The notes under the pieces are model-generated. The model was given only the letters and a program-made list of their open reading frames with translations, had not been told where the DNA came from and ran no database searches. The translations under genes and the position numbers were made by a program. Positions 6,027-18,259 of a DNA stretch of 64,000 nucleotides are shown here, one piece after another (position 1 is the first letter of the stretch; each line of letters opens with the position of its first letter). This stretch comes from Natronospira proteinivora (GTDB lineage Bacteria > Pseudomonadota > Gammaproteobacteria > Natronospirales > Natronospiraceae): positions 868,001 to 932,000 of the forward strand of contig NZ_JALJYF010000001.1 in the NCBI RefSeq assembly GCF_024170465.1, read 5' to 3'.

Positions 6027-8054
6027 ATGAGCGAAGAGAGCAACCAGAACTGGCATCTTGAGATTGATGGCAGCCGGATTGGCTGGCTCAAGTTCGACAA
6101 GCCCGAAGCCAGCGCCAACACTCTGTCACGAGAGGTGATGGACGAGCTGGACAAGCGCCTGGCTGAGATCGAACAGGAGGAGCTCAAGGGCCTGGTGGTG
6201 TATTCCGCCAAGAAAAGCGGTTTTATCGCCGGGGCCGATATCAAGGAATTCACCACTCTGGAAAGTAGCGATCAGGCCTTGGATTTGATCCGGAATGGGC
6301 AGAAGGCCCTGGCACGTCTGGAAGCCCTCAAATGCCCCACTGTGGCCGTGATCCATGGTTTTGCATTGGGTGGTGGTCTGGAACTGGCCTTGGCTTGCGA
6401 CTACCGGGTGGCGGCGGATGATGAACGCACCCAACTGGGCCTGCCGGAAGTGAAGCTGGGCATTCACCCCGGCTTTGGCGGCACGGTTCGCTCCATTCGT
6501 CTGGTGGGTGTTTTCAACGCCATGGACATGATGCTCTCCGGCCGCAGCCTCAAGGCAAAGGCCGCCGGAAAGATCGGTCTGGTGGACCGGGTGGTGGAGC
6601 CTGACGCATTGCATGAAGCCGCTCGCCAGATTGCCTTGACACCGCCCGGCAAGAACAAGGCACCCTTCGCCGCCCGCCTAGCCAATCTGCCAGGTGTTCG
6701 GAGCATCCTGGCTGGGCAAATGGAAAAGCAAGTAGCGCCCAAGGCCCCCAAGCAGCATTATCCGGCCCCCTACGCCATCATTGACCTGTGGCGCCGGCAC
6801 TGGGGCAATGAAGAGAAGATGTATCTGGAGGAAGCCCAGTCCATTGCGCGTCTGATGATGACCGACACTGCCCGTAATCTGGTGCGTGTTTTCTTGCTGC
6901 AGGACACGCTGAAGGGCCAGGGCAACAAGAAGGACCTGGAGCTCAAGCGAGTCCACGTGGTGGGTGCCGGTGTCATGGGCGGGGATATCGCCGCCTGGGC
7001 TGCGCTCTCGGGTTTCGACGTCACCCTGCAGGATCGGGAAGAAAAATTCATTCAGCCGGCCCTGGACCGGGCCCGCAAGTTGTTCGAGAAGAAACTCAAA
7101 AAGGACGACAAGATCCAGGATGCGGTCAGCCGTCTACGCCCCGATGTCGAGGGGAAAGGGGCTGAAGATGCCGATGTGGTGATCGAGGCCATTTTCGAGA
7201 ATGTGGAGGCCAAGCAAAAGCTCTACAAGGATCTGGAAGCTCGCATGCCCAAGGAAGCTGTGCTGGCGACCAACACTTCCAGCATTCGACTGGAAACCCT
7301 GCGGGAAGTGCTTCAGGACCCCGACCGTCTGGTGGGTCTGCATTTCTTCAACCCGGTGGCCAAGATGCCCCTGGTGGAGGTCATCAAGACCGACAGCACG
7401 CCGGATACGGTGCTCAAGAAAGCCCTGGCTTTCACCCGCCACGTGAACCGTCTGCCGGTGCCTTGCAAGAGCGCACCGGGCTTTTTGGTTAACCGAATTC
7501 TCATGCCCTACATGATGGAAGCCGTGTTGGCCTATGAGGACGGGGTTCCCCTGGAGGCCATCGATAAGGCCGCCAAGGACTACGGCATGCCCATGGGACC
7601 GGCAGAACTGGCCGATACAGTAGGACTGGATGTGGGGCTTTCGGTCGCCAAGATCCTGGGCAAGGAATTCGGCATGCCCGTACCCAAGCGCCTGGAGGAA
7701 CTGGTTGAAGCGGAAAAACTGGGTCGTAAGAGTGGTGAAGGCTTTTACAAGTATGAAGACGGCAAGCCGGTCAAGGATCGCAGCAAGGCCTCGGAACAGC
7801 CTGCCGATCTCACGGATCGTTTGATCCTGCCCATGATCAATACTGCCGTGGCCTGTCTCCGGGAAGGCATAGTGGATAATGAAGAGATCCTGGATGGTGG
7901 CGTTATCTTCGGAACCGGTTTTGCACCCTTCCGGGGTGGCCCCATCAACTACGCTCGCAGTGAAGGCATCAAGGAAGTGAAAAGCCGGCTTGAGAAGCTT
8001 GAGAAGACCTACGGTGAACGCTTCAAGCCGGATGCCGGCTGGGAGCAACTCTAA
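6027..8054 (+). CDS. fadJ: FadJ-like bifunctional enoyl-CoA hydratase / 3-hydroxyacyl-CoA dehydrogenase
   Basis: This 675-aa protein carries out the hydration and NAD-dependent dehydrogenation steps of beta-oxidation. The first 200 residues are a crotonase domain with SGFIAGADIKEF and the GFALGGGLELALACDYR active-site loop. From about residue 305 comes the NAD-binding domain (VHVVGAGVMGGDIA), then the 3-hydroxyacyl-CoA dehydrogenase signature around LHFFNPVAKMPLVEVI, and two C-terminal helical domains. It is somewhat shorter than E. coli FadB or FadJ (729 and 714 aa). ATG at 6027 is chosen over 6015 because GGAG sits six bases upstream. No thiolase gene is adjacent, which is unusual. Confidence 0.88.
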   Translation: MSEESNQNWHLEIDGSRIGWLKFDKPEASANTLSREVMDELDKRLAEIEQEELKGLVVYSAKKSGFIAGADIKEFTTLESSDQALDLIRNGQKALARLEALKCPTVAVIHGFALGGGLELALACDYRVAADDERTQLGLPEVKLGIHPGFGGTVRSIRLVGVFNAMDMMLSGRSLKAKAAGKIGLVDRVVEPDALHEAARQIALTPPGKNKAPFAARLANLPGVRSILAGQMEKQVAPKAPKQHYPAPYAIIDLWRRHWGNEEKMYLEEAQSIARLMMTDTARNLVRVFLLQDTLKGQGNKKDLELKRVHVVGAGVMGGDIAAWAALSGFDVTLQDREEKFIQPALDRARKLFEKKLKKDDKIQDAVSRLRPDVEGKGAEDADVVIEAIFENVEAKQKLYKDLEARMPKEAVLATNTSSIRLETLREVLQDPDRLVGLHFFNPVAKMPLVEVIKTDSTPDTVLKKALAFTRHVNRLPVPCKSAPGFLVNRILMPYMMEAVLAYEDGVPLEAIDKAAKDYGMPMGPAELADTVGLDVGLSVAKILGKEFGMPVPKRLEELVEAEKLGRKSGEGFYKYEDGKPVKDRSKASEQPADLTDRLILPMINTAVACLREGIVDNEEILDGGVIFGTGFAPFRGGPINYARSEGIKEVKSRLEKLEKTYGERFKPDAGWEQL

Positions 8055-8130: not shown

Positions 8131-8580
8131 ATGTACTGGGAAGATCCACCAGAGGACCGGGAAGCCGCGGTCCGAACCCTGGCAATGCCCAAGGATACCA
8201 ACGGCCTGGGCGATATATTCGGCGGCTGGATCATGTCACATGCGGATGTGGCCGGTGCCATTCTGGCCTACCGCCGGGCCGCAGGCCGGGTCGTGACGGT
8301 TGCTGTCAATGATGTGAAGTTCCTGCGGCCGGTGTTTGTCGGTGATGTGGTGAGCTTCTATTGTGATGTGAAAAAAGTGGGCAACACCTCCGTCACCGTG
8401 GAGATTACGGTTTTCTCCGAACGGAATGACGGCGGTGTGGCCCGGCATGTCCGTGTGGCCACGGCCTCCATTACTTATGTCCATATTGATCTGGACGGTC
8501 GTCCCCGCCCTGTTCCCAGCGGCAAGGATCAGAGTCAGGCTGCCCGGGATCCGGATGGGCGTCCCCAGTCTCCAAAGTAA
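8131..8580 (+). CDS. Acyl-CoA thioesterase, hot-dog fold (YciA-like)
   Basis: A 149-aa hot-dog-fold thioesterase. The segment MPKDTNGLGDIFGGWIMSHADVAGAILA is the family active-site region, with Asn-Xaa-xx-Gly-Asp-xx-GG features and the catalytic Asp in HADVAG; AVNDVKFLRPVFVGDVVSFY follows on the central strands. YciA-like enzymes hydrolyse acyl-CoA to free acid and CoA. The start has AAGGAG upstream with good spacing. The C-terminal 25 residues are polar and probably disordered. It follows the FadJ-like gene by 76 nt with a hairpin between, and a strong terminator comes after it. A role in releasing free acids during acyl-CoA metabolism is likely. Confidence 0.85.
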   Translation: MYWEDPPEDREAAVRTLAMPKDTNGLGDIFGGWIMSHADVAGAILAYRRAAGRVVTVAVNDVKFLRPVFVGDVVSFYCDVKKVGNTSVTVEITVFSERNDGGVARHVRVATASITYVHIDLDGRPRPVPSGKDQSQAARDPDGRPQSPK

Positions 8581-8600
8581 GCTTCCTTTAATGAGTAAAT

Positions 8601-8638
8601 AAAAAGCCTCCAGTGTCACCACACGCTGGAGGCTTTTT
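8601..8638. terminator. Bidirectional rho-independent terminator
   Basis: AAAAAGCCTCCAG (8601-8613) pairs with CTGGAGGCTTTTT (8626-8638): a 13-bp perfect arm around a 12-nt loop, with a T run on the right and an A run on the left. It lies between the convergent thioesterase and pgsW genes and can stop transcription from both sides. Confidence 0.92.
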
Positions 8639-8714
8639 ATTCTTCGTAGAGTGGACAAACATTATTTGGACGAAGCCGACGGAGAACCTTTTGTCCGGTC
8701 GCAATCTGCCCTTG

Positions 8715-9866
8715 TCAAACCATGGGGCGGGTGGTGCCTTGGCCTTCACCAGAGCGACTCCACAGGGCGGTGATGCCGGCGGAGTGAACCATCAGCCATG
8801 TCAGGCCGATAAGAAACAGCCCCAGAACGGCCGCCATCCCCCGTCGATAGGTAGAGGCGCTGTAGATGCCACCGCTGCCCACCGGAACCGGTTCTTCCGA
8901 GGCAATGGGCAGGCCATGCCGTTCTGCCATATTGTTAATGCCGATGAAGTGAATGGCCGGTACCCCTTCCCGGAGAAAATACCCCATTACCGTTTCGACG
9001 GCGAAGGCCCGGGGCGGTGCGCTTCTTGAGAGGCCGGAAGAGAATTGACTGTCGATGCCCGGCGGGCCCACGATGGTGGCCCCCCCGCCCACGTTGACAA
9101 AGGCCTTGATGGGTTCGCCACCCGAATGCTCCCTGAACAGAGCAATTCGATCAGCCACAGCCTCTTGATAACTGCCGGGCTCAAGGAAGGGGATGCCTGC
9201 TCTCTGGATGCTGCGGCGAATGATGTTTATACCCTGGTCGGATAGATCGACCCCCCGGTCCTCTACCCCACCGATGGATGCCGCCACCGGTGTCAAGTTC
9301 AGGACATCGGCATTCCGAAGTTCTCGTTCCATATCAGTCCAGAGCATACCCGGTACATTGGCACCCCATTGGGAGGAGGACCCCGAGCTAATGATAATGG
9401 GTTCCACATCCATGGCCTGCAGCGCGGAATAAACCGCCAGATTCATGCCGGGGAATGACCCCGACACGGTCACGGCAACCTTATCCCCCGACTCAACCCC
9501 CGCATCCAGTAACAGTTTCACTGCCACTGCCCCCCAGTTCGGGTTCACTGTGGTTTGCTTGGATTGGAGACCGCCGCGGGTGGTGGTGACTTCACTGGAA
9601 GCGACACCGATCAGACCCGAACGCTGGGGATCGAATGTGGGGTTGATTGGCTCCACGCGGCCACGTATGGGGCGGATTACTTCAATGGCATCCCGCATGG
9701 TCCGAGAAGCAGCCACCATGGTGGCGTAGTTTTCCTCCACGACAGGGTCGCGTTTGAGGAAACCTTCGGCAATGCCCAGCACCAGCAAGGCGGCCCCGGC
9801 CAATAGGATTAAACCCCAGGCCGGTACCTTGGAAGAACGCCAATAAATTTTGGTCATACGGCTCAT
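8715..9866 (-). CDS. pgsW: PgsW, poly-gamma-glutamate system protein
   Basis: A 383-aa protein of the poly-gamma-glutamate system family PgsW. It has an N-terminal transmembrane segment (about residues 16-35), a large extracytoplasmic domain, and a second hydrophobic segment near the C-terminus (about 343-362). Recognisable blocks include DKVAVTVSGSFPGMNLAVYSALQAM and the Ser-rich IIISSGSSSQWGAN; the latter recalls a substrate or nucleotide-binding loop, but its function is not established. GGAG lies nine bases before the chosen ATG. It is the last gene of the pgsB-pgsC-pgsW group, 19 nt after pgsC. The family occurs with PgsB and PgsC homologues, so a role in polymer synthesis, sensing or export is inferred. 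Confidence 0.8.
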   Translation of the reverse strand: MSRMTKIYWRSSKVPAWGLILLAGAALLVLGIAEGFLKRDPVVEENYATMVAASRTMRDAIEVIRPIRGRVEPINPTFDPQRSGLIGVASSEVTTTRGGLQSKQTTVNPNWGAVAVKLLLDAGVESGDKVAVTVSGSFPGMNLAVYSALQAMDVEPIIISSGSSSQWGANVPGMLWTDMERELRNADVLNLTPVAASIGGVEDRGVDLSDQGINIIRRSIQRAGIPFLEPGSYQEAVADRIALFREHSGGEPIKAFVNVGGGATIVGPPGIDSQFSSGLSRSAPPRAFAVETVMGYFLREGVPAIHFIGINNMAERHGLPIASEEPVPVGSGGIYSASTYRRGMAAVLGLFLIGLTWLMVHSAGITALWSRSGEGQGTTRPMV

Positions 9867-9885
9867 AGTGATTGACTCCTCACCG

Positions 9886-10461
9886 TTACCAGCCCGGCAT
9901 CTGGCTGGCTTGCTGGGCTTCGAAGGCGGCCAGGGTATCGGGCATGATGACGATCAGGGCCAGACGAACCAATACCGCGGTTACCGCCAGACCACACAAG
10001 GTCTGTAGAATGCCCTGGCGGTCAAACCAGATGGCGATCAGTCCGGGGATGATGTAACCGATAACACTCATCTCCAGTACCGCCATGGTCAGAATGGAAT
10101 CCATGGCTGCCACCTGGGCCTCGGCATCCCCGCCTTCTCCAATCATTTCCAGATCTGCCCAGGCGATTAGGCCACCCAAGAGCAAGTCCATGACCCCGGC
10201 GATCATATAGCCGGTGAGAATCATTAGGATGGTCTGACGTCGCCCGTAAATCACGGCATAACTGGCCACAAGGCGAACGATAAGAAAGGTCACCAAAGCA
10301 GCGGTCAGAGTCACGGCCACGTTCAAGGGATTGGTGAGTTGCAGCGCCATGTAACCTGGCACCACAAGTCCACCGGCCGCTAAACCAAATGCTTGGCTGA
10401 GTATCAGCGTAAAGAAAAGACCGATGCCGATTGCAGCGGCCAGAATATTCAGGGCAATCAT
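9886..10461 (-). CDS. pgsC: PgsC/CapC, poly-gamma-glutamate biosynthesis membrane protein
   Basis: A 191-aa integral membrane protein with about five hydrophobic segments. The N-terminal half closely follows the PgsC/CapC pattern (LILSQAFGLAAGGLVVPGYMAL, then TFLIVRLVASYAVIYGRRQ). PgsC forms the membrane part of the poly-gamma-glutamate synthase with PgsB. There is an acidic loop around residues 105-120. The start codon overlaps the pgsB stop as ATGA, a sign of translational coupling. A longer in-frame opening to 10563 exists, but those residues fall within the pgsB gene and do not look like protein of this family. The pgsW start follows 19 nt later. Confidence 0.85.
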   Translation of the reverse strand: MIALNILAAAIGIGLFFTLILSQAFGLAAGGLVVPGYMALQLTNPLNVAVTLTAALVTFLIVRLVASYAVIYGRRQTILMILTGYMIAGVMDLLLGGLIAWADLEMIGEGGDAEAQVAAMDSILTMAVLEMSVIGYIIPGLIAIWFDRQGILQTLCGLAVTAVLVRLALIVIMPDTLAAFEAQQASQMPGW

Positions 10462-11660
10462 AGATCTTCTTCCTTCATGGCCCGGTTTTGGAAGAAGCGG
10501 GCAACCGCCTCTCCCCCTCCATGGATATTGCAGACACCCACTACCAGGGACTTCTGGTTGCACTGCTCAAGAATGGTTTCGGTGATTTCCACCATGGAGC
10601 TCTGCTCCGCTACAATCAGTTTTTCAGGGTCAAGTCCCGCCTTGACCGCCATGCGGGCAAACAAGAGTGTTCCGGACCCCATGAGAATGTAACGGTCAGC
10701 AGCAGACCAGCTTGGAACAGCCTGTGCTAGTTGCTGGGATCGGTGCGGGCGATCGGCTCTGCAATTAATGAGCACGAGGCGCCGCCTGTCCTGGCCATGA
10801 CGAGACACCATTTTTTCCCAGATACGCTCTGTGGATTGCGGGTCATTGGCAGCGAAGGCATTGACGAAAATCATGTCTCGTTCGAAATAGCGGACATGCA
10901 GGATTCTCATGGCCCCGGGTTCCGGCTCCAGACCCACCATGCCTTCCAGTGCGGTTTCCCGGTCCACACCCAGGCGTTCGCAAAGCTTGAGGGCAAGGGC
11001 GACATTCTCGGCATGCTCGCTATAACGAAAGCGATTGAGTGTGGCCTCGTCAATGGCTTCAACTTCGTCCAGTGTAACCGGATGCAAGTCACTGCCCCGG
11101 TCACGGGTGGAATGCTCGAAAACCGGTAGCAAATCTCGTTCAGCGGTGAACAATTCACCCTTGACCGGGGTGCTTCCGGCCAGGGCCAGAGCCACGTCCT
11201 CCTCTTCCGGTCCCATCACCTCCAAGTGGTCGGCCCTGGCATTGGTAATCACCCCGATGGTGGAGCGGACCATTTTCAACTCAGTGAGGGACTGATACTG
11301 CGGCTGCAGGGCCATGCATTCCATGACCGCGATCTCGGGGCGAAATGTCACCATCCGCCCCATGATGCGCATTTGTTCAATGATATTGGCACCGCTCAGG
11401 CGATAGAGGGGAAACTCCCGACCGTCCGGATCGGTAAGGGCGGCCGCGGACCCGGTGGTCTTGGCACATACACGCTTGCCGCCGGCACGCAGGCCTGCAG
11501 CAATAAGTCGGGTCACACTGGTCTTGCCGCGGGTTCCGTTCACGTGGATCCGAACGGGAATGCGTTGAAGGATCCAGCGATGGCGCAGCGCTTCCAGGGA
11601 CAGCAGGAATACCAGGGCCAGCCAGAGACCGGCCACCACCATAAGCATCTGAGGCAACAT
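10458..11660 (-). CDS. pgsB: PgsB/CapB, poly-gamma-glutamate synthase ligase subunit
   Basis: A 400-aa ATP-dependent amide ligase of the Mur-ligase-like PgsB/CapB family. It has an N-terminal membrane anchor (about residues 5-25), then the ATP-binding motif NGTRGKTSVTRLI (GTRGKTS at 42-48). Further family blocks are AKTTGSAA and VITNARADHLEVMG, and the C-terminal GVCNIHGGGE. The enzyme polymerises glutamate through its gamma-carboxyl. It starts five bases after the pilZ stop and ends in an ATGA overlap with pgsC, so it appears co-expressed with the fab-tmk-holB-pilZ run upstream. No PgsA/CapA gene is nearby. In halophiles the polymer could serve as capsule or osmoprotective layer; that is inference. 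Confidence 0.88.
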   Translation of the reverse strand: MLPQMLMVVAGLWLALVFLLSLEALRHRWILQRIPVRIHVNGTRGKTSVTRLIAAGLRAGGKRVCAKTTGSAAALTDPDGREFPLYRLSGANIIEQMRIMGRMVTFRPEIAVMECMALQPQYQSLTELKMVRSTIGVITNARADHLEVMGPEEEDVALALAGSTPVKGELFTAERDLLPVFEHSTRDRGSDLHPVTLDEVEAIDEATLNRFRYSEHAENVALALKLCERLGVDRETALEGMVGLEPEPGAMRILHVRYFERDMIFVNAFAANDPQSTERIWEKMVSRHGQDRRRLVLINCRADRPHRSQQLAQAVPSWSAADRYILMGSGTLLFARMAVKAGLDPEKLIVAEQSSMVEITETILEQCNQKSLVVGVCNIHGGGEAVARFFQNRAMKEEDL

Positions 11661-11665
11661 GGCGC

Positions 11666-12019
11666 TTACATCGTATGGGTGGGACGGTCGGCACCCATGG
11701 CGCCGGCAAGATGGGTTTCGATCTTCTGCTGGGTCTTGCCACCATCCTTGTCGGAAAACTGCACCCCGATACCGGCAACGCGTTTGCCACCGGCACCCCG
11801 GGGTGTCACCCAGACCACTTTGCCTGCCACTGGAATCTTGTCCGGTTCATCCATGAGGCTCAGAAGTAGAAACACTTCATCCCCTAGGCGATAGGGTTTG
11901 CTGGTGGGAATGAAAATACCGCCATTCTTGACGAAGCCCATATACGCCACATAAAGGGCGCTCTTATCCTTGATGGTGAGGGTCAGAATACCCTGTTGGG
12001 GTCCCTTCGCTGCCGTCAT
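11666..12019 (-). CDS. pilZ: PilZ, type IV pilus assembly protein
   Basis: A 117-aa stand-alone PilZ protein. The segment GILTLTIKDKSALYVAYMGFVKNGGIFIPT and the later KIPVAGKVVWVTPRGAGGKRVAGIGVQF are those of the original type IV pilus PilZ of Pseudomonas and Xanthomonas. That group lacks the RxxxR arginines needed for c-di-GMP binding, and none are seen here, so it probably acts by protein contact (PilB, FimX) rather than as a receptor. ATG at 12019 is preferred to an upstream start with an unrelated leader. The position after holB is conserved in gammaproteobacteria; here pgsB follows at five bases where tatD often occurs. Confidence 0.9.
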   Translation of the reverse strand: MTAAKGPQQGILTLTIKDKSALYVAYMGFVKNGGIFIPTSKPYRLGDEVFLLLSLMDEPDKIPVAGKVVWVTPRGAGGKRVAGIGVQFSDKDGGKTQQKIETHLAGAMGADRPTHTM

Positions 12020-12032
12020 GTTGCAACCTCTT

Positions 12033-13106
12033 CTACTGGGTGAAGGCCGAGCCATTGCCTTCTAGCCGCCCTTGAGCGAGCGACCGTTGATCGGGTGCAC
12101 CCCTGATTATGCCACAAACTTGGGCCCATTGCCCCAATAAGGATTCCGCCAATAACTGGGGATTGGCACTGTCCAAGCGCCGCTCGGCGTGATCCACGGC
12201 AGAGAGCAGCTCGTGCAAGGCTTTCCAGTTTATTCGGCTTGCCAGCTTTTGCAACTCATCGCCCTGGACACTGCTCAGAGCATCGGCATACTGAGGGCCG
12301 GCCTGAAGCTGCCGACTCAGGGCCTGCAGCCAGACCCGCCACCAAGCGATCACGGAGGCAAGGTCCTGTTTTATCCACTGATCGGCGGCATTTACCACGG
12401 TTTCTCGCCCAGTGCCCACGGCCAATACCCGCCGGGCATTCTCACGCGCCTGCTCCACTCCGCCACTGTCCCAAAGAGAGAGGGCTTTCAGGGGTGAGCC
12501 TCCGGCCAGGGCGAGGGTCTCTCGCCAGTCCCCCTCCCCCTGCTCCGATAGCCAGGACAGTGCTTGCTGTTGATCCGGCCGTGGAATCATCACCTGTTGG
12601 CAGCGACTGCGGATGGTGGGCGTCAGTCGGCCGGGCAGGGAAGTCACCAGAATCAACAAGGCATTCCCAGCGGGTTCTTCCAGTGTCTTGAGCAGGCTGT
12701 TGCTGGCACCGGTGGTCATGATCTCTGCCGGGGCAATAATAGCGTGCTTGCCAGCTGACTGAGAAGCGGTAAGAGACATCCAGGCCGACAATTCCCGGAC
12801 CTGCTCCACCCGAATGGTCTTGCGCTTGGCTTCCACAGCGAGGCGCCGCCAATCGGGGTGGGTCCCCGCCAGGAACTGCCGGCAACCATCGCATTTCCCG
12901 CAGGGGCTACCTTCGCTGTCCGGCTCGCGGCACAAGCGGGCTTGAACCAGGTACTCGGCAAACTGCAGCTTGCCCACCCCGCTGGGGCCGGCAATCAACA
13001 GGGCGTGAGGTAATCGCCCGCTTCTGATGCGGGCCATCAGCCCGTTCCAGGCCGTCTCATGCCAGGGCAGACGCTTTGGGGGAGGGAAGGTGCCTTCCTC
13101 GCTCAT
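12033..13106 (-). CDS. holB: DNA polymerase III delta-prime subunit
   Basis: A 357-aa clamp-loader subunit. The P-loop-like segment GPSGVGK is at residues 40-46. A zinc site is formed by Cys59, Cys69, Cys72 and Cys75 (CREPDSEGSPCGKCDGC). The sensor region SNSLLKTLEEPAGNALLILVTS is typical of delta-prime. It works in the clamp-loader complex that places the sliding clamp on DNA. The chosen start overlaps the tmk stop as ATGA, which is standard for this locus; a further 30 nt of open frame upstream are ignored. pilZ starts 13 nt after its stop. Confidence 0.93.
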   Translation of the reverse strand: MSEEGTFPPPKRLPWHETAWNGLMARIRSGRLPHALLIAGPSGVGKLQFAEYLVQARLCREPDSEGSPCGKCDGCRQFLAGTHPDWRRLAVEAKRKTIRVEQVRELSAWMSLTASQSAGKHAIIAPAEIMTTGASNSLLKTLEEPAGNALLILVTSLPGRLTPTIRSRCQQVMIPRPDQQQALSWLSEQGEGDWRETLALAGGSPLKALSLWDSGGVEQARENARRVLAVGTGRETVVNAADQWIKQDLASVIAWWRVWLQALSRQLQAGPQYADALSSVQGDELQKLASRINWKALHELLSAVDHAERRLDSANPQLLAESLLGQWAQVCGIIRGAPDQRSLAQGRLEGNGSAFTQ

Positions 13107-13771
13107 GATAATGCCTCGGGCAATTGTCGGATCCATTGTGCCAATTCGGTCTGGATCTGGGATTGCACCTGATTGAGGGACTGGCTGGCATCAATTCGCC
13201 GAAAACGTTCGGGCTCTGCTTCGGCCCGCTCGAGGTAGGTCTCGCGGATGGTCTGGAAAAACTGAACCGTTTCCTGCTCGAAACGATCTCGTTCCCCTCT
13301 TTTGTCCGCCCGCTCAAGCCCTATGGAGACGGGTGCGTCCAATAGTAGCGTCAGATCCGGGCGGCGTTCTCCCTGTATCCATTGTTCCAGCCAGGCCACG
13401 GCGGCCTCCCCCAGTTTTCGTCCCTGACCTTGGTAGGCATAAGTGGCATCGGTGAATCGATCACAAAGAACCCATTCTCCCCGTGACAGAGCCGGGAGGA
13501 TGACATCCTGCAGGTGAGAGTCCCGAGCGGCGAAAATCAGAAGCAGCTCCGCTTTGTCCGTCAAAGGCGCGGCATCCCGTTTCACCAGCAATTCACGAAC
13601 GGCCTCGGCAAAGGGCGTGCCACCCGGTTCCCGGGTACGGCAGACAGTAATATCCTGCTTTCGAAGATAGTCGGCAATGAAATCCATATTGGATGATTTG
13701 CCCACCCCTTCCCCGCCTTCCACGGTAATGAATCGTCCGGGCGGTGTTTGTTTCGTGGTCTCATTCACCAT
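13103..13771 (-). CDS. tmk: Thymidylate kinase
   Basis: A 222-aa kinase that phosphorylates dTMP to dTDP. The P-loop GGEGVGKS is at residues 19-26; the DR(Y/F) motif appears as CDRFTDATYAYQGQGRKL, and the lid region as ERADKRGERDRFE. The ATG at 13771 lies 11 nt inside the end of mltG, so the two genes overlap; a longer opening to 13864 would overlap mltG by about 100 nt and lacks family resemblance. Its stop overlaps holB (ATGA). The yceG-tmk-holB order is classic for gammaproteobacteria. Confidence 0.94.
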   Translation of the reverse strand: MVNETTKQTPPGRFITVEGGEGVGKSSNMDFIADYLRKQDITVCRTREPGGTPFAEAVRELLVKRDAAPLTDKAELLLIFAARDSHLQDVILPALSRGEWVLCDRFTDATYAYQGQGRKLGEAAVAWLEQWIQGERRPDLTLLLDAPVSIGLERADKRGERDRFEQETVQFFQTIRETYLERAEAEPERFRRIDASQSLNQVQSQIQTELAQWIRQLPEALS

Positions 13772-14795
13772 TATTCTCCAGGTCCACATCCTCTCCCAGC
13801 TGATATTTTCGAACCGCCCGGTTGTGTTCTGCCAGGGTGCTTGAAAAATGGTGGCTGCCGTCATTACGGGAGACGAAGTACAAATGATCTCCCTCTATCG
13901 GTTGTACGGCCGCCTCCAGAGATGCGCGACCCGGCATGGCGATGGGGGTGGGTGTAAGGCCATGGCGGGTGTAGGTGTTGTAGGGAGTGTCGGTTCTCAG
14001 GTGACGATAGCGCAGACGACCATCAAAGTTTTCATCCTCCACGCCGTAGATGACCGTGGGATCGGTTTGAAGACGCATACCCTCTCGCAAGCGACGGGTG
14101 AAGACACCGGCCACCTTGCGCCGTTCCCCCGCCACGCCGGTTTCCCGTTCGATAATCGAGGCCAGAATCAGGGCCTCATAGACCGTATCATAGGGCAATC
14201 CCCCATCCCGGTCTGCCCAGACTGCTTCCAGTGTCTCCTGCATGGCCTGGTGGGCACGCCCTAGGATCTCCAGGTCCGTGGTACCGCGGGAGAATCGGTA
14301 GGTTTCAGGAAGAAACCATCCTTCCGGATGCAAGGCCTCTGAGCCCAGGGTGGCCATCACGGCATGGTCATCCAACTCCCCAATGGTATGCTTAACGGCC
14401 TCATGGCGAGCCAGGGCCTCACGAAGCTGTCGGAAGGTCCAGCCTTCAACCAGGGTGAAACGGTGCAATACCACCTCTCCCCTTTCCAGGCGGTTTACCA
14501 GTTCCGGTATGGTCATATCTGGTGTCAAGCGGTACTCACCGGCCTGGATTCGACGTCCCCGATCGCTGAGTCGAGACCAAACGCGTACTGGACGGGCATC
14601 GTCAATAATGCCCTCATCTTCCAGCTCACGCATCAGCCCCATTAGGGAACTGCCCCGTTCAATCTCCACGAGATACGGCTCATTCAGGTCCAGCGTGTCG
14701 TTTTCCAGGTTGTACCACTGCTGCCAGACATAAATGCCCGTTACGCTGAGTGCCAGCATGAACAGTGCTGCCAGAATGAGCAGGAGATTTCTCAT
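13761..14795 (-). CDS. mltG: Endolytic murein transglycosylase MltG (YceG)
   Basis: A 344-aa membrane-anchored lytic transglycosylase that cleaves nascent glycan strands. Residues about 4-24 form the single transmembrane anchor. A LysM-like region follows (residues about 40-110), then the catalytic YceG domain; the conserved LASIIERETG puts the catalytic Glu at residue 218, the same number as in E. coli. The block MRLQTDPTVIYG is also typical. The start overlaps the pabC stop (ATGA) and the end overlaps tmk by 11 nt. Confidence 0.93.
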   Translation of the reverse strand: MRNLLLILAALFMLALSVTGIYVWQQWYNLENDTLDLNEPYLVEIERGSSLMGLMRELEDEGIIDDARPVRVWSRLSDRGRRIQAGEYRLTPDMTIPELVNRLERGEVVLHRFTLVEGWTFRQLREALARHEAVKHTIGELDDHAVMATLGSEALHPEGWFLPETYRFSRGTTDLEILGRAHQAMQETLEAVWADRDGGLPYDTVYEALILASIIERETGVAGERRKVAGVFTRRLREGMRLQTDPTVIYGVEDENFDGRLRYRHLRTDTPYNTYTRHGLTPTPIAMPGRASLEAAVQPIEGDHLYFVSRNDGSHHFSSTLAEHNRAVRKYQLGEDVDLENNGE

Positions 14796-15631
14796 TGGGT
14801 CACGCCTTTTTCCTTAAGGACTGTCTGCAGTTGATGGGTGATTCGACCCGGTGGCCATTGGGCTTGAATATCATGTCCATGAAGTCCGACCACCGGGCGA
14901 ATACCATTGAGGCTGTTACTTAGAAAGACCTCGTCTGCCAATAGAATATCCCTCAGCCGGAGTTCCGTCACCCGGGCATCGATACCCTGCTTTCGGCAGC
15001 TGTCCAGCACTTCCGCACGCATCACCCCGGCCACCCCACTGTGACTCAGCTCAGGCGTCAGGACCATCCCCTGGCCGACCAAGAAGATATTGGCGGCCAC
15101 CGCTTCAATGATGCGGCCGTCTTCGTCCCTCAGCAGCCCTTCGTCCCGTCCGGCTTGATCCACTTCGCGCCGGGCTAGGACCTGGTCCAGGCGATTGCTG
15201 TGCTTAAGACCGGCCAGGGCCGCCTGTCGGCCCAGACGATGTTCACAAAGTTGCAACTGCAGCAATTGTCCGCTGGTGTCCGGGGCGGGGAAGCAGCCAA
15301 GATAACATTGGGATTCGGGCTCGCTGGGACGACGGTAACCTCGATCGCCGCCGGCTAGGGTCAGGATGAGCTTGATGACCCAACGCCCCTGCGGCGGACA
15401 CATCCGGCGGATATCCTCCCGTAATGTTGCTTTGGGGGGGCATGGGATCTCCAGGCGTTCACAGCCCTGTCTCAGCCGCGCCCAGTGACGCTCCCAGAGT
15501 GGCAAACGGCCGTCCATGGCCAGCATGGTTTCAAATAGGCTTTCGCCAAATTGCAAACCCCGGTTGGGCCATGCTTCTGACTCCAGGGGGACTTCGTTCA
15601 GCTGCCATTGACCCTGAATCTTTTGCGCCAT
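14792..15631 (-). CDS. pabC: Aminodeoxychorismate lyase
   Basis: A 279-aa PLP enzyme of fold type IV that converts 4-amino-4-deoxychorismate to 4-aminobenzoate and pyruvate for folate synthesis. The PLP lysine is Lys143 in GLKHSNRLDQVLAR. FGESLFET near residue 28 and SNSLNGIRPV near the C-terminus are family signatures. The start is four bases after the pabB stop; an upstream extension overlaps pabB and is rejected. It ends in an ATGA overlap with mltG. Position between fabF/pabB and mltG agrees with the usual cluster. Confidence 0.9.
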   Translation of the reverse strand: MAQKIQGQWQLNEVPLESEAWPNRGLQFGESLFETMLAMDGRLPLWERHWARLRQGCERLEIPCPPKATLREDIRRMCPPQGRWVIKLILTLAGGDRGYRRPSEPESQCYLGCFPAPDTSGQLLQLQLCEHRLGRQAALAGLKHSNRLDQVLARREVDQAGRDEGLLRDEDGRIIEAVAANIFLVGQGMVLTPELSHSGVAGVMRAEVLDSCRKQGIDARVTELRLRDILLADEVFLSNSLNGIRPVVGLHGHDIQAQWPPGRITHQLQTVLKEKGVTQ

Positions 15632-15635
15632 GGGT

Positions 15636-16991
15636 TCAATGCTCCAGTGCCAGCAACATGCCGCGGGCCTTGGCCCGGGTCTCATCCAGCTCCTGTTCCG
15701 GAATGGAATCCGCGACGATGCCGGCCCCTGCCAACAGCCTCAACGCCCTTCCCCGGGTTTCCATGGTTCGAATGAGGATGTTGCTGTCCATGCTGCCGTC
15801 CCGGTTGATATAGCCAAGGCTGCCGGTATAGGCGCCACGGGGTCGGGCTTCCAGTTCCGCAATGATTTCCATGCAACGAACTTTGGGGCAACCGGTGATG
15901 GTGCCGCCGGGAAAGACCGCGGCCAGAATCTGGCCCGGAGTAATGCCTGCATCAACCTGGCCCCTGACGTTGGAAACGATGTGGTGAACATGGGCATAAC
16001 TCTCCAGCACCATGAGCTCGTCCACTTCCACGCTGCCTGGCTGACAGATGCGTCCCAGATCATTGCGCTCCAGGTCGATCAGCATAATATGCTCTGCCCG
16101 CTCCTTGGGATGGCCGATCAACTCGTCCAGCATGGCCTTGTCCTGGGATTGTACCGATCCCCGGGGTCGAGTGCCCGCTATGGGACGGGTATTGACCCAG
16201 CCTTGGGTCCGGCTGACCAGGCGTTCCGGAGAAGAGCTGATGACAGCCTGATCACCTCGTACTGCCAGTCCGGCGAAGGGGCCGGGATTGCTTGCTCGCA
16301 AGCGCTGATAGACATCGGCTGGCTCGATGCCGCTGCGAAGCCGGCCTTGCCAGCTTCGGGACAAATTGGCTTGAAATACATCGCCATCTCGAATATAGCG
16401 GCGCGTCCGGTCCACGGCGTGGCAATAGTGTTCGGGGGCTTCCTCTGTGAGTGCCTCTTCCAGCAGGAGGTGTTGATCACTGCCATCACGATCATGACTA
16501 CGCTCGGCATCCTGAGCAAGATGTTTGATTCGACCCTCGTCGGGTTGCTCCGAGACCAGCCAGGTGCAGTTTTCATGATGATCAATAATGACAGCGGCGG
16601 GGATTCGAACCGCCCAGGCGATTTCCTGCGCGGGGTCGTGTGGCAAGCGCAGGCTCGGCTCAATCAAACCGGCCATTTCATAGGAGAGGTAGAAAAACCA
16701 GCCGCCGGAGAAAGGCAAGGAGCGATCCGCTTCGGCTAGGCGTTCCGACTGCCATTCCTCATCCAGCTGTTTGAGGAAATCCCTGGGCGGGTCACCGGCC
16801 TTGAGATCGATTTCTCGGCCTGGAAACGCGAATAGCAGGCTGTACCGGCCTTGTTCAGGACCGTGGGCGGCACTTTCCAGCAAGAAGGGGTATCGCTCTG
16901 GATTGGCTCGGTGCATGCCGAGCAGATTCGGCATGGTCTCAAGCTGGACCACTTCTGCCGCCAGGCTATCCTTGGGCTTGGCTTCGAGCAT
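15636..16991 (-). CDS. pabB: Aminodeoxychorismate synthase component I
   Basis: A 451-aa chorismate-binding enzyme that aminates chorismate to aminodeoxychorismate with a separate amidotransferase (PabA, not in this window). The C-terminal two thirds carry the chorismate-binding signatures: RRYIRDGDVFQANLSRSW, SSPERLVSRTQGWVNTRPIAGTRPRG, and HIMLIDLERNDLGRIC, then FPGGTITGCPKVRCMEII. The PIAGT motif distinguishes PabB-type enzymes with a Lys-free GTRPRG region from anthranilate synthase only weakly, but adjacency to pabC supports PabB. It begins 23 nt after fabF. Confidence 0.9.
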   Translation of the reverse strand: MLEAKPKDSLAAEVVQLETMPNLLGMHRANPERYPFLLESAAHGPEQGRYSLLFAFPGREIDLKAGDPPRDFLKQLDEEWQSERLAEADRSLPFSGGWFFYLSYEMAGLIEPSLRLPHDPAQEIAWAVRIPAAVIIDHHENCTWLVSEQPDEGRIKHLAQDAERSHDRDGSDQHLLLEEALTEEAPEHYCHAVDRTRRYIRDGDVFQANLSRSWQGRLRSGIEPADVYQRLRASNPGPFAGLAVRGDQAVISSSPERLVSRTQGWVNTRPIAGTRPRGSVQSQDKAMLDELIGHPKERAEHIMLIDLERNDLGRICQPGSVEVDELMVLESYAHVHHIVSNVRGQVDAGITPGQILAAVFPGGTITGCPKVRCMEIIAELEARPRGAYTGSLGYINRDGSMDSNILIRTMETRGRALRLLAGAGIVADSIPEQELDETRAKARGMLLALEH

Positions 16992-17014
16992 GATGTGCTC
17001 GCGGCCTCCCAGGC

Positions 17015-18259
17015 TCAGTCAAGCTTGCGGAAAACGAGAGTCCCGTTGGTCCCGCCAAAGCCAAAGGAATTGGACAGGGCCACGTTGATCTTGCGTTCCT
17101 GGGCGCCATTGGCCACGTAATCCAGATCGCAACCCTCGTCGGGGTTGTCTAGATTGATGGTGGGCGGGGCCACCTGATCACGAATGGCCAATACAGAGAA
17201 AACCGCTTCCACACCGCCGGCCGCACCAAGCAGATGCCCGGTCATGGACTTGGTGGAACTGACCGCAATTTTCTTGGCATGATCGCCCAGTAAATCCTTG
17301 GTGGCGCGGGTTTCCGCCAGATCACCCAGCTTGGTGGAGGTGCCGTGGGCATTGATGTAGTCCACTTCCTCCGGAGCAATGTCCCCGTCCTTGAGTGCGG
17401 ACTCCATGCATCGTCGGGCGCCCTCACCGTCTTCCGGCGGTGCGGTCATGTGGTGCGCGTCCCCACTCATGCCAAAGCCGGACAGCTCGGCATAAATACG
17501 TGCGCCGCGCTTTTTGGCACTTTCATACTCTTCCAGCACCAGCACCCCGGCGCCATCGCCCAGCACAAAGCCATCCCGGTCCTTGTCCCAGGGCCGGCTG
17601 GCGGCTTCGGGATCATCATTGCGGGTGGACAAGGCGCGGGCGGCACAGAATCCACCCAGGCCTACCGGCGTGGTGCCCATTTCGGCCCCACCGGCGACCA
17701 TGGCATCCGCGTCCCCATAGGCAATGGCGCGGGCCGCCACGCCGATATTATGGGTGGCCGTGGTGCAGGCCGTGACCAGGGCCAGATTGGGGCCTTTGAG
17801 GCCATACATGATGGACAGATTGCCCGAGATCATATTGATGATGGTGCCGGGCACGAAAAACGGCGAAATGCGCTTGGCATTGCCGTTGTCCAGATAGGTC
17901 TTGTGGGCCTTTTCGATACCATCCAGCCCACCGATGCCCGAACCGACAGCCACACCGATACGATCCGCATTCTCGTCGCTGGCTTCCAGGCCGGAATCCC
18001 GGAAAGCCTGAATGGAGGCAACCAGGCCATAATGAATGAAGGGATCCATGCGCCGCGCATCCCGCGGGTTCAGGTAATCACTGTGGTCAAACCCCTTCAC
18101 CTCTCCGGAGAACCGGGTGGGGAACTGGCTGACATCGAACCGTTCAACCGGGCCGATACCACTTTTCCCCGCCAGGATATCCGACCAGGCGGATTCAACA
18201 GTACTACCAACCGGAGACACGATACCCAGGCCGGTAACGACAACGCGACGCTTAGCCAA
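17015..18259 (-). CDS. fabF: Beta-ketoacyl-ACP synthase II
   Basis: A 414-aa condensing enzyme of fatty acid elongation. The catalytic triad is visible: Cys165 in VTACTTATH, the first His in [11 protein letters not shown] and the second His in [13 protein letters not shown]. The C-terminal NSFGFGGTN glycine loop is intact. FabF elongates palmitoleoyl-ACP to cis-vaccenoyl-ACP and matters for temperature adaptation. It follows acpP in the standard order; a long hairpin between the two (18292-18328) may lower fabF expression relative to acpP. Confidence 0.94.

Follow-up and report, generated by a model that had tools for sequence, protein, structure and literature searches.

The stretch of DNA analysed here (the window) comprises 64,000 nucleotides of the Natronospira proteinivora genome. 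On its minus strand, a cassette of three genes for poly-gamma-glutamate (PGA) synthesis, pgsBCW (11660..8715), lies directly behind pilZ and is followed by a strong hairpin terminator (Table 1). pilZ ends at 11666 and the ATG of pgsB stands at 11660; the pgsB and pgsC frames share 4 bases (10461/10458), and pgsC and pgsW are 19 bases apart (9886 to 9866). A previous reading of the window, made from the letters alone (the sequence-only reading), had placed pgsB five bases after pilZ with pgsC and pgsW tightly spaced behind it, which these distances (5, -4 and 19 bases) bear out. The span that it gave for the arrangement, 9886-12019, covers pilZ, pgsB and pgsC, but pgsW runs on to 8715.

Table 1. 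Genes and other features of the pgsBCW locus, in coordinates of the window
Feature	Position	Strand	Description	Family match or other evidence
yciA-like thioesterase	8131..8580	+	convergent, bounds the insert	NF007970 124.5 bits (below cut-off 162); PF03061 67.1 bits
bidirectional terminator-like hairpin	8598..8641		separates pgsW from the convergent yciA-like gene	19-base arms, 95% complementary, 6 bases between the arms
pgsW	8715..9866	-	383 aa, third cassette gene	TIGR04332 321.2 bits, cut-off 100
pgsC	9886..10461	-	191 aa, membrane subunit	TIGR04011 108.9 bits, cut-off 96.45; PF14102 CapC
pgsB	10458..11660	-	400 aa, Mur-ligase-like PGA synthase	TIGR04012 478.6 bits, cut-off 222.7; PF08245 Mur ligase middle domain
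pilZ-pgsB junction	11661..11665	-	5 bases	
pilZ	11666..12019	-	PilZ domain, last gene ahead of the cassette	PF07238 48 bits, cut-off 22.5 (scored on the longer frame 11666-12055)
holB	12033..13136	-		NF004310 289.6 bits, cut-off 280; TIGR00678 193.3 bits, cut-off 180.6
tmk	13103..13771	-		TIGR00041 172.2 bits (scored on the longer frame 13103-13864)
mltG	13761..14795	-		TIGR00247 291.1 bits
pabC, pabB, fabF frames	14792..18259	-	open frames	same order in L053-L055

PgsB, PgsC and PgsW all score above the curated cut-offs of their families, and the earlier identification of the genes as a PGA synthase set is supported. The Mur-ligase nucleotide-binding stretch of PgsB, HVNGTRGKxSV, is invariant in all six aligned sequences. 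PgsW was without any Pfam family in the Pfam scan.

The housekeeping row ahead of the cassette runs on into it, the order on the minus strand being fabF, pabB, pabC, mltG, tmk, holB, pilZ, pgsB, pgsC, pgsW. From fabF to pgsW all genes share one strand and the largest gap is 23 bases, with the pilZ start taken at 12019 and the pabC start at 15631. The names pabC, pabB and fabF are putative, and an alternative later start of holB is possible at 13106. Third-position GC of pgsBCW is 0.66, compared to 0.58-0.70 in the housekeeping row. We considered odd composition as a sign of transfer and rejected it, since both the GC and the third-position GC of pgsBCW are within the range of the row; the composition of the cassette is ameliorated. 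A search of 8560-12100 for signs of mobile elements yielded, apart from the terminator hairpin, only repeats that were short and imperfect.

To place the locus among its relatives, we compared the corresponding position in the genus, the family and the order. In one congener (G001, locus L053), the same row ends in pgsBCW and is followed by convergent yciA and fadJ. In a second congener (G002, L054) and in a further member of the family (G003, L055), pilZ and yciA converge directly, with 49 and 134 bases, respectively, between the aligned ends including stop codons, and neither genome (completeness 90 and 83%) gave a PgsB match. Among the four family members the position behind pilZ is therefore empty in two and holds pgsBCW in two. 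PilZ of the window is 78-91% identical to that of G001-G003. In the order, which is represented by 19 genomes (10 at least 90% complete), PgsB was found above cut-off in two.

For the outgroup, loci L056-L065 were taken from 10 of the order's 15 remaining genomes. Behind pilZ, tatD is found in two of these ten (L064 and L065; L061 ends just past pilZ) and also in Pseudidiomarina planktonica (L160), so that the description of this position as the place where tatD often follows holds for some relatives. A gene that we read from the sequence as cyclic-nucleotide-binding/rhodanese-like precedes yciA in each of the six outgroup loci where yciA was located (L056, L057, L060, L063, L064 and L065). 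Taken together, the outgroup and family loci indicate that the position behind pilZ is variable in the order. The single TatD-family match of the window genome lies elsewhere (G000:C1:777808-778575, L153); a simple move of a pilZ-linked tatD to that place is not supported, as this TatD is just 31% identical to the tatD of L065. In a tree of nine concatenated neighbour genes, the best topology pairs the window genome (G000) with G002 (support 62/65), and the other two congener pairings were not rejected (AU p = 0.29 and 0.32). With the branching of the congeners poorly supported, a single gain, a gain with a loss, and two gains are indistinguishable.

Across the class, 6 of the 369 sampled genomes carry a PgsB above cut-off (54 of 369 at E 0.001). 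A single-sequence PgsB scan of genome contigs recovered no relative, and an alignment was used as query instead; it gave 491 relatives, of which the best 80 were kept as named loci. The closest PgsB among these best 80 of 491 belong to 20 Idiomarinaceae loci (65-73% identical), followed by Rhodothalassium salexigens (61%), a Wenzhouxiangella (59%) and a Lysobacterales MAG (58%), and then by a gammaproteobacterial MAG, planctomycetes, myxobacteria and others at 48-55%. Carriers of PgsBCW within the same best 80 were found in the Pseudomonadota, planctomycetes, myxobacteria, spirochaetes and other groups. Matches to pgsC and pgsW lie beside pgsB in 76 of the 80 loci and the other four end at contig edges; L110 and L114 have a short or broken pgsW frame. 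By these matches, pgsBCW is a widespread three-gene cassette.

Not one of the best 80 of 491 PgsB loci has the cassette beside holB-pilZ (73 of them with more than 1,500 bases upstream). When the nine neighbour genes were searched in these loci, one of the 80 matched, with a weak PilZ about 2.9 kb off on the opposite strand (L127). Neighbouring frames differ in the five relatives that we compared by eye (L073, L083, L086, L089 and L094), indicating that the cassette usually occurs without the housekeeping row. The arrangement had been called unfamiliar, a view that the same order being common in distant genera would have overturned; we looked for this order in the best 80 of 491 loci and found none, and PgsB itself exceeds its cut-off in just two of the 19 genomes of the order. 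The pilZ-pgsBCW arrangement was also not named among the open-access papers listed for Natronospira, for Idiomarina with PGA, and for halophile PGA, PGA transfer, Francisella capBCA and operon evolution.

A PgsB-like Mur-ligase domain was also observed in long open frames (1387-1666 codons). One is L070:3854-8719 (G079), in which the domain falls slightly short of the PgsB cut-off with 216.6 bits and HEAT repeats are present; the others are in G094, G322, G315 and G160 (L071, L072, L012 and L013), and L070-L072 gave no pgsC or pgsW match. In a gammaproteobacterial MAG, a frame that by eye resembles a SulP-type transporter (L095:8988-10610) lies 15 bases after pgsBCW, a further type of neighbour for the cassette.

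A tree was built from PgsB, PgsC and PgsW combined, with 43 rows comprising the window, L053, L066-L068 and 38 of the 80 named loci. In it, the window and G001 group with the 20 Idiomarinaceae in a single clade (support 100/100). The Idiomarinaceae alone form a clade at just 84/38, so that transfer could have run either way. As controls we used MltG and PilZ in the genomes of five of the 80 loci, two proteins that make a small basis. MltG of three Idiomarinaceae genomes was 41, 41 and 48% identical, that of Wenzhouxiangella 50% and that of Rhodothalassium 41%, and PilZ was matched in two of the five genomes (50% in Wenzhouxiangella, 36% in Pseudidiomarina). PgsB ranks opposite to these controls, with the Idiomarinaceae (65-73%) above Wenzhouxiangella (59%), and the simplest account of this is horizontal transfer between the genus and the Idiomarinaceae, in either direction. 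The MltG match in the genome of Idiomarina abyssalis (G384, the L073 genome; L157) has one internal TAA stop codon.

We consider it probable that pgsBCW is a self-contained PGA synthase cassette, acquired horizontally and inserted after pilZ and ahead of the operon terminator, and that it is expressed by read-through and re-initiation to give surface PGA. A transferred cassette joining the end of an operon is a known kind of event, and the kinship of pgsBCW together with the cassette-free relatives argues for this ordinary process in a rare place. The cassette would have been gained in the ancestor of the genus or of part of the genus. In the window species, transcripts from the housekeeping row would run on through pgsBCW, and pgsB, which is without a good ribosome site, would be translated by re-initiation after pilZ. 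PgsB would then ligate glutamate with PgsC as its membrane partner, PgsW may stand in for PgsA in export or elongation, and the polymer would be surface PGA.

The signals around the junction bear on how the cassette is expressed. The terminator hairpin behind pgsW folds at -28.3 kcal/mol and was absent from the pattern-scan terminator list, and at the pilZ-pgsB junction no hairpin with a T run was found. The pairing of the pgsB ribosome site in the window, at -0.7 kcal/mol, is the weakest among the genes scored (median -3.6 kcal/mol for 1000 random 22-base stretches), which suits re-initiation after pilZ; a poor pgsB ribosome site occurs elsewhere too (L086, +0.2 kcal/mol). Transcript read-through from the fabF-pilZ row into pgsBCW is plausible in the window species, judging from the layout of the genes. 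The sequence-only reading had proposed comparing this junction in relatives: the order is the same in G001, but the best pgsB start there is a TTG at L053:7417 with a ribosome site of -11.2 kcal/mol, 73 bases past the pilZ stop, and G002 and G003 are cassette-free. The frame of the G001 pgsB is open further upstream, with other possible starts at 7402 (-4.5) and 7357. The strong ribosome site in G001 indicates that translational coupling of pilZ and pgsB is not general and, if TTG 7417 is the start, the 73-base gap indicates that the short distance between the two genes varies within the genus.

Alternatively, the cassette could lie behind pilZ by accident and be transcribed from a promoter of its own, inside pilZ or in the G001 gap, with the housekeeping row contributing little. 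We regard this as possible, though clearly less probable than expression as the tail of the row. It would agree with the strong ribosome site of G001 and, provided that pgsB starts at TTG 7417, with the gap there, with the differing neighbours in the five relatives compared by eye, and with weak terminator-like matches inside pilZ, one in the window (11934-11919) in a scan at chance level (18 vs. 18.9 in shuffles) and one in G001 (L053 7119-7136) in a scan near chance. The 5-base spacing in the window and the lack of a good pgsB ribosome site there speak against a separate promoter. The minus strand of the window gave no promoter-like site between 12735 and 8715, including close before pgsB, and none was found close before the G001 pgsB either (L053 6900-10450); as both scans were near chance (11 vs. 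8.5 in the window), this absence carries little weight.

The third gene sets the cassette apart from the known PGA systems, as PgsW occupies the third-gene position in place of PgsA. No match to PgsA/CapA (PF09587) at E 0.001 was obtained in the genome (98% complete, four contigs), and no PGA hydrolase of PF05908 was found in it. Sequence searches of solved structures gave no homologue of PgsB, PgsC or PgsW. The predicted structure of PgsW (pLDDT 90.7, pTM 0.85, from an alignment of 70 rows) has long helices at 16-35 and 342-370; in this model, membrane-type helices appear to flank one alpha/beta domain, and the positive residues ahead of the first helix would place this domain outside the cytoplasm. 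The best match of a Foldseek search with the model had an E of 5e-3, short of the 0.001 threshold, with TM-scores of at most 0.26 among the 50 matches listed, and the best VIA-align hit, with a Z of 7.8 over 129 residues, is in the range that this method rates common. We therefore assign PgsW to no fold family and note just a Rossmann-like look. PgsW thus has a confident predicted fold and no convincing solved match, yet pgsW accompanies pgsB in many phyla. In two low-GC genomes, which we take to be Francisella-like, the gene in third place in the cap locus (L066:5900-7099 and L068:5939-7120) is likewise a member of TIGR04332 without a Pfam family; a protein called CapA in these genomes would then be something other than PgsA/PF09587.

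By analogy with Bacillus, glutamate would be polymerised at the membrane by PgsB and PgsC, both of which score above equivalog cut-offs. It is nonetheless conceivable, if unlikely, that the gene names mislead and that the product is another gamma-glutamyl product or modification rather than free surface PGA. Such a product would be in line with a genome that has neither a PgsA/CapA homologue nor a PF05908 hydrolase, and with a PgsW that has no solved homologue by sequence and none convincing by fold. It would also be in line with the relevant passage of a review, in which Francisella capB and capC were found uninvolved in capsule production by LVS (PMC4688374); the relevant text of a second paper concerns PGA hydrolases (PMC4497714). 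In the open-access literature, we found no work joining poly-gamma-glutamate with PgsW or with Idiomarina.

Polymer synthesis had also been described as apparently wired to the housekeeping operon, which does not fit a cassette that is shared horizontally, is missing here from G002 and G003, and lacks a conserved 5-base spacing; we found no evidence for a functional tie to fatty-acid, replication or pilus genes. That selection coupled polymer synthesis to growth or type IV pilus function through PilZ is highly improbable. In its favour, the order is kept in two species of the genus; against it, the arrangement is absent from G002 and G003, was not seen in the 80 other loci (best 80 of 491), and the pilZ-pgsB spacing is not conserved.

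A bolder version of our favoured reading, in which the cassette is expressed from the row, would extend to growth coupling across the genus. Transcripts of pgsBCW would come solely from the fatty-acid/folate/replication row, re-initiation after pilZ would yield PgsB in the window species, and capsule output would track growth rate and not a stress regulator. PgsW, with its Rossmann-like domain between two membrane helices, would be an unrelated replacement of PgsA across Gram-negative phyla. We put this forward as a tentative proposal, and rather doubt that it holds in full.

Read as a transferred and appended cassette, the locus would represent a clear case in which a polymer cassette has come to occupy the last position of a conserved housekeeping operon, and the differently spaced sister (G001) and the cassette-free relatives (G002 and G003) provide a comparison set. 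It also brings to attention PgsBCW as a little-studied type of PGA synthase, for no subunit of which a solved homologue was found by sequence.

Among known systems, the Idiomarinaceae pgsBCW (L073-L091 and L102) is the nearest, with the identical gene order pgsB-pgsC-pgsW, PgsB at 65-73% identity and one 100/100 clade with the window. It differs in that the housekeeping row was not matched in the fetched flanks and other neighbours were present in the four loci compared by eye. The cap locus of low-GC gammaproteobacteria (G066, G204 and G308), presumably Francisella-like, also has the order B-C-third gene, and the third gene matches TIGR04332 with 263.7 and 260.2 bits in the two scanned; identity is just 43% for PgsB, 35-38% for PgsC and 27-28% for PgsW. 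The Bacillus PgsBCA/CapBCA system consists of a Mur-ligase-like PgsB, a membrane PgsC and a third gene, in this order. The window shares the two subunits and the order, whereas its third gene is PgsW (TIGR04332), its genome is without PF09587 and its cassette stands behind a housekeeping row. That row has the same backbone as the row of E. coli, fabH-fabD-fabG-acpP-fabF-pabC-yceG-tmk-holB-ycfH, in which the terminal ycfH is a tatD-type gene; in the window, by contrast, pilZ follows holB and pgsBCW takes the tatD position.
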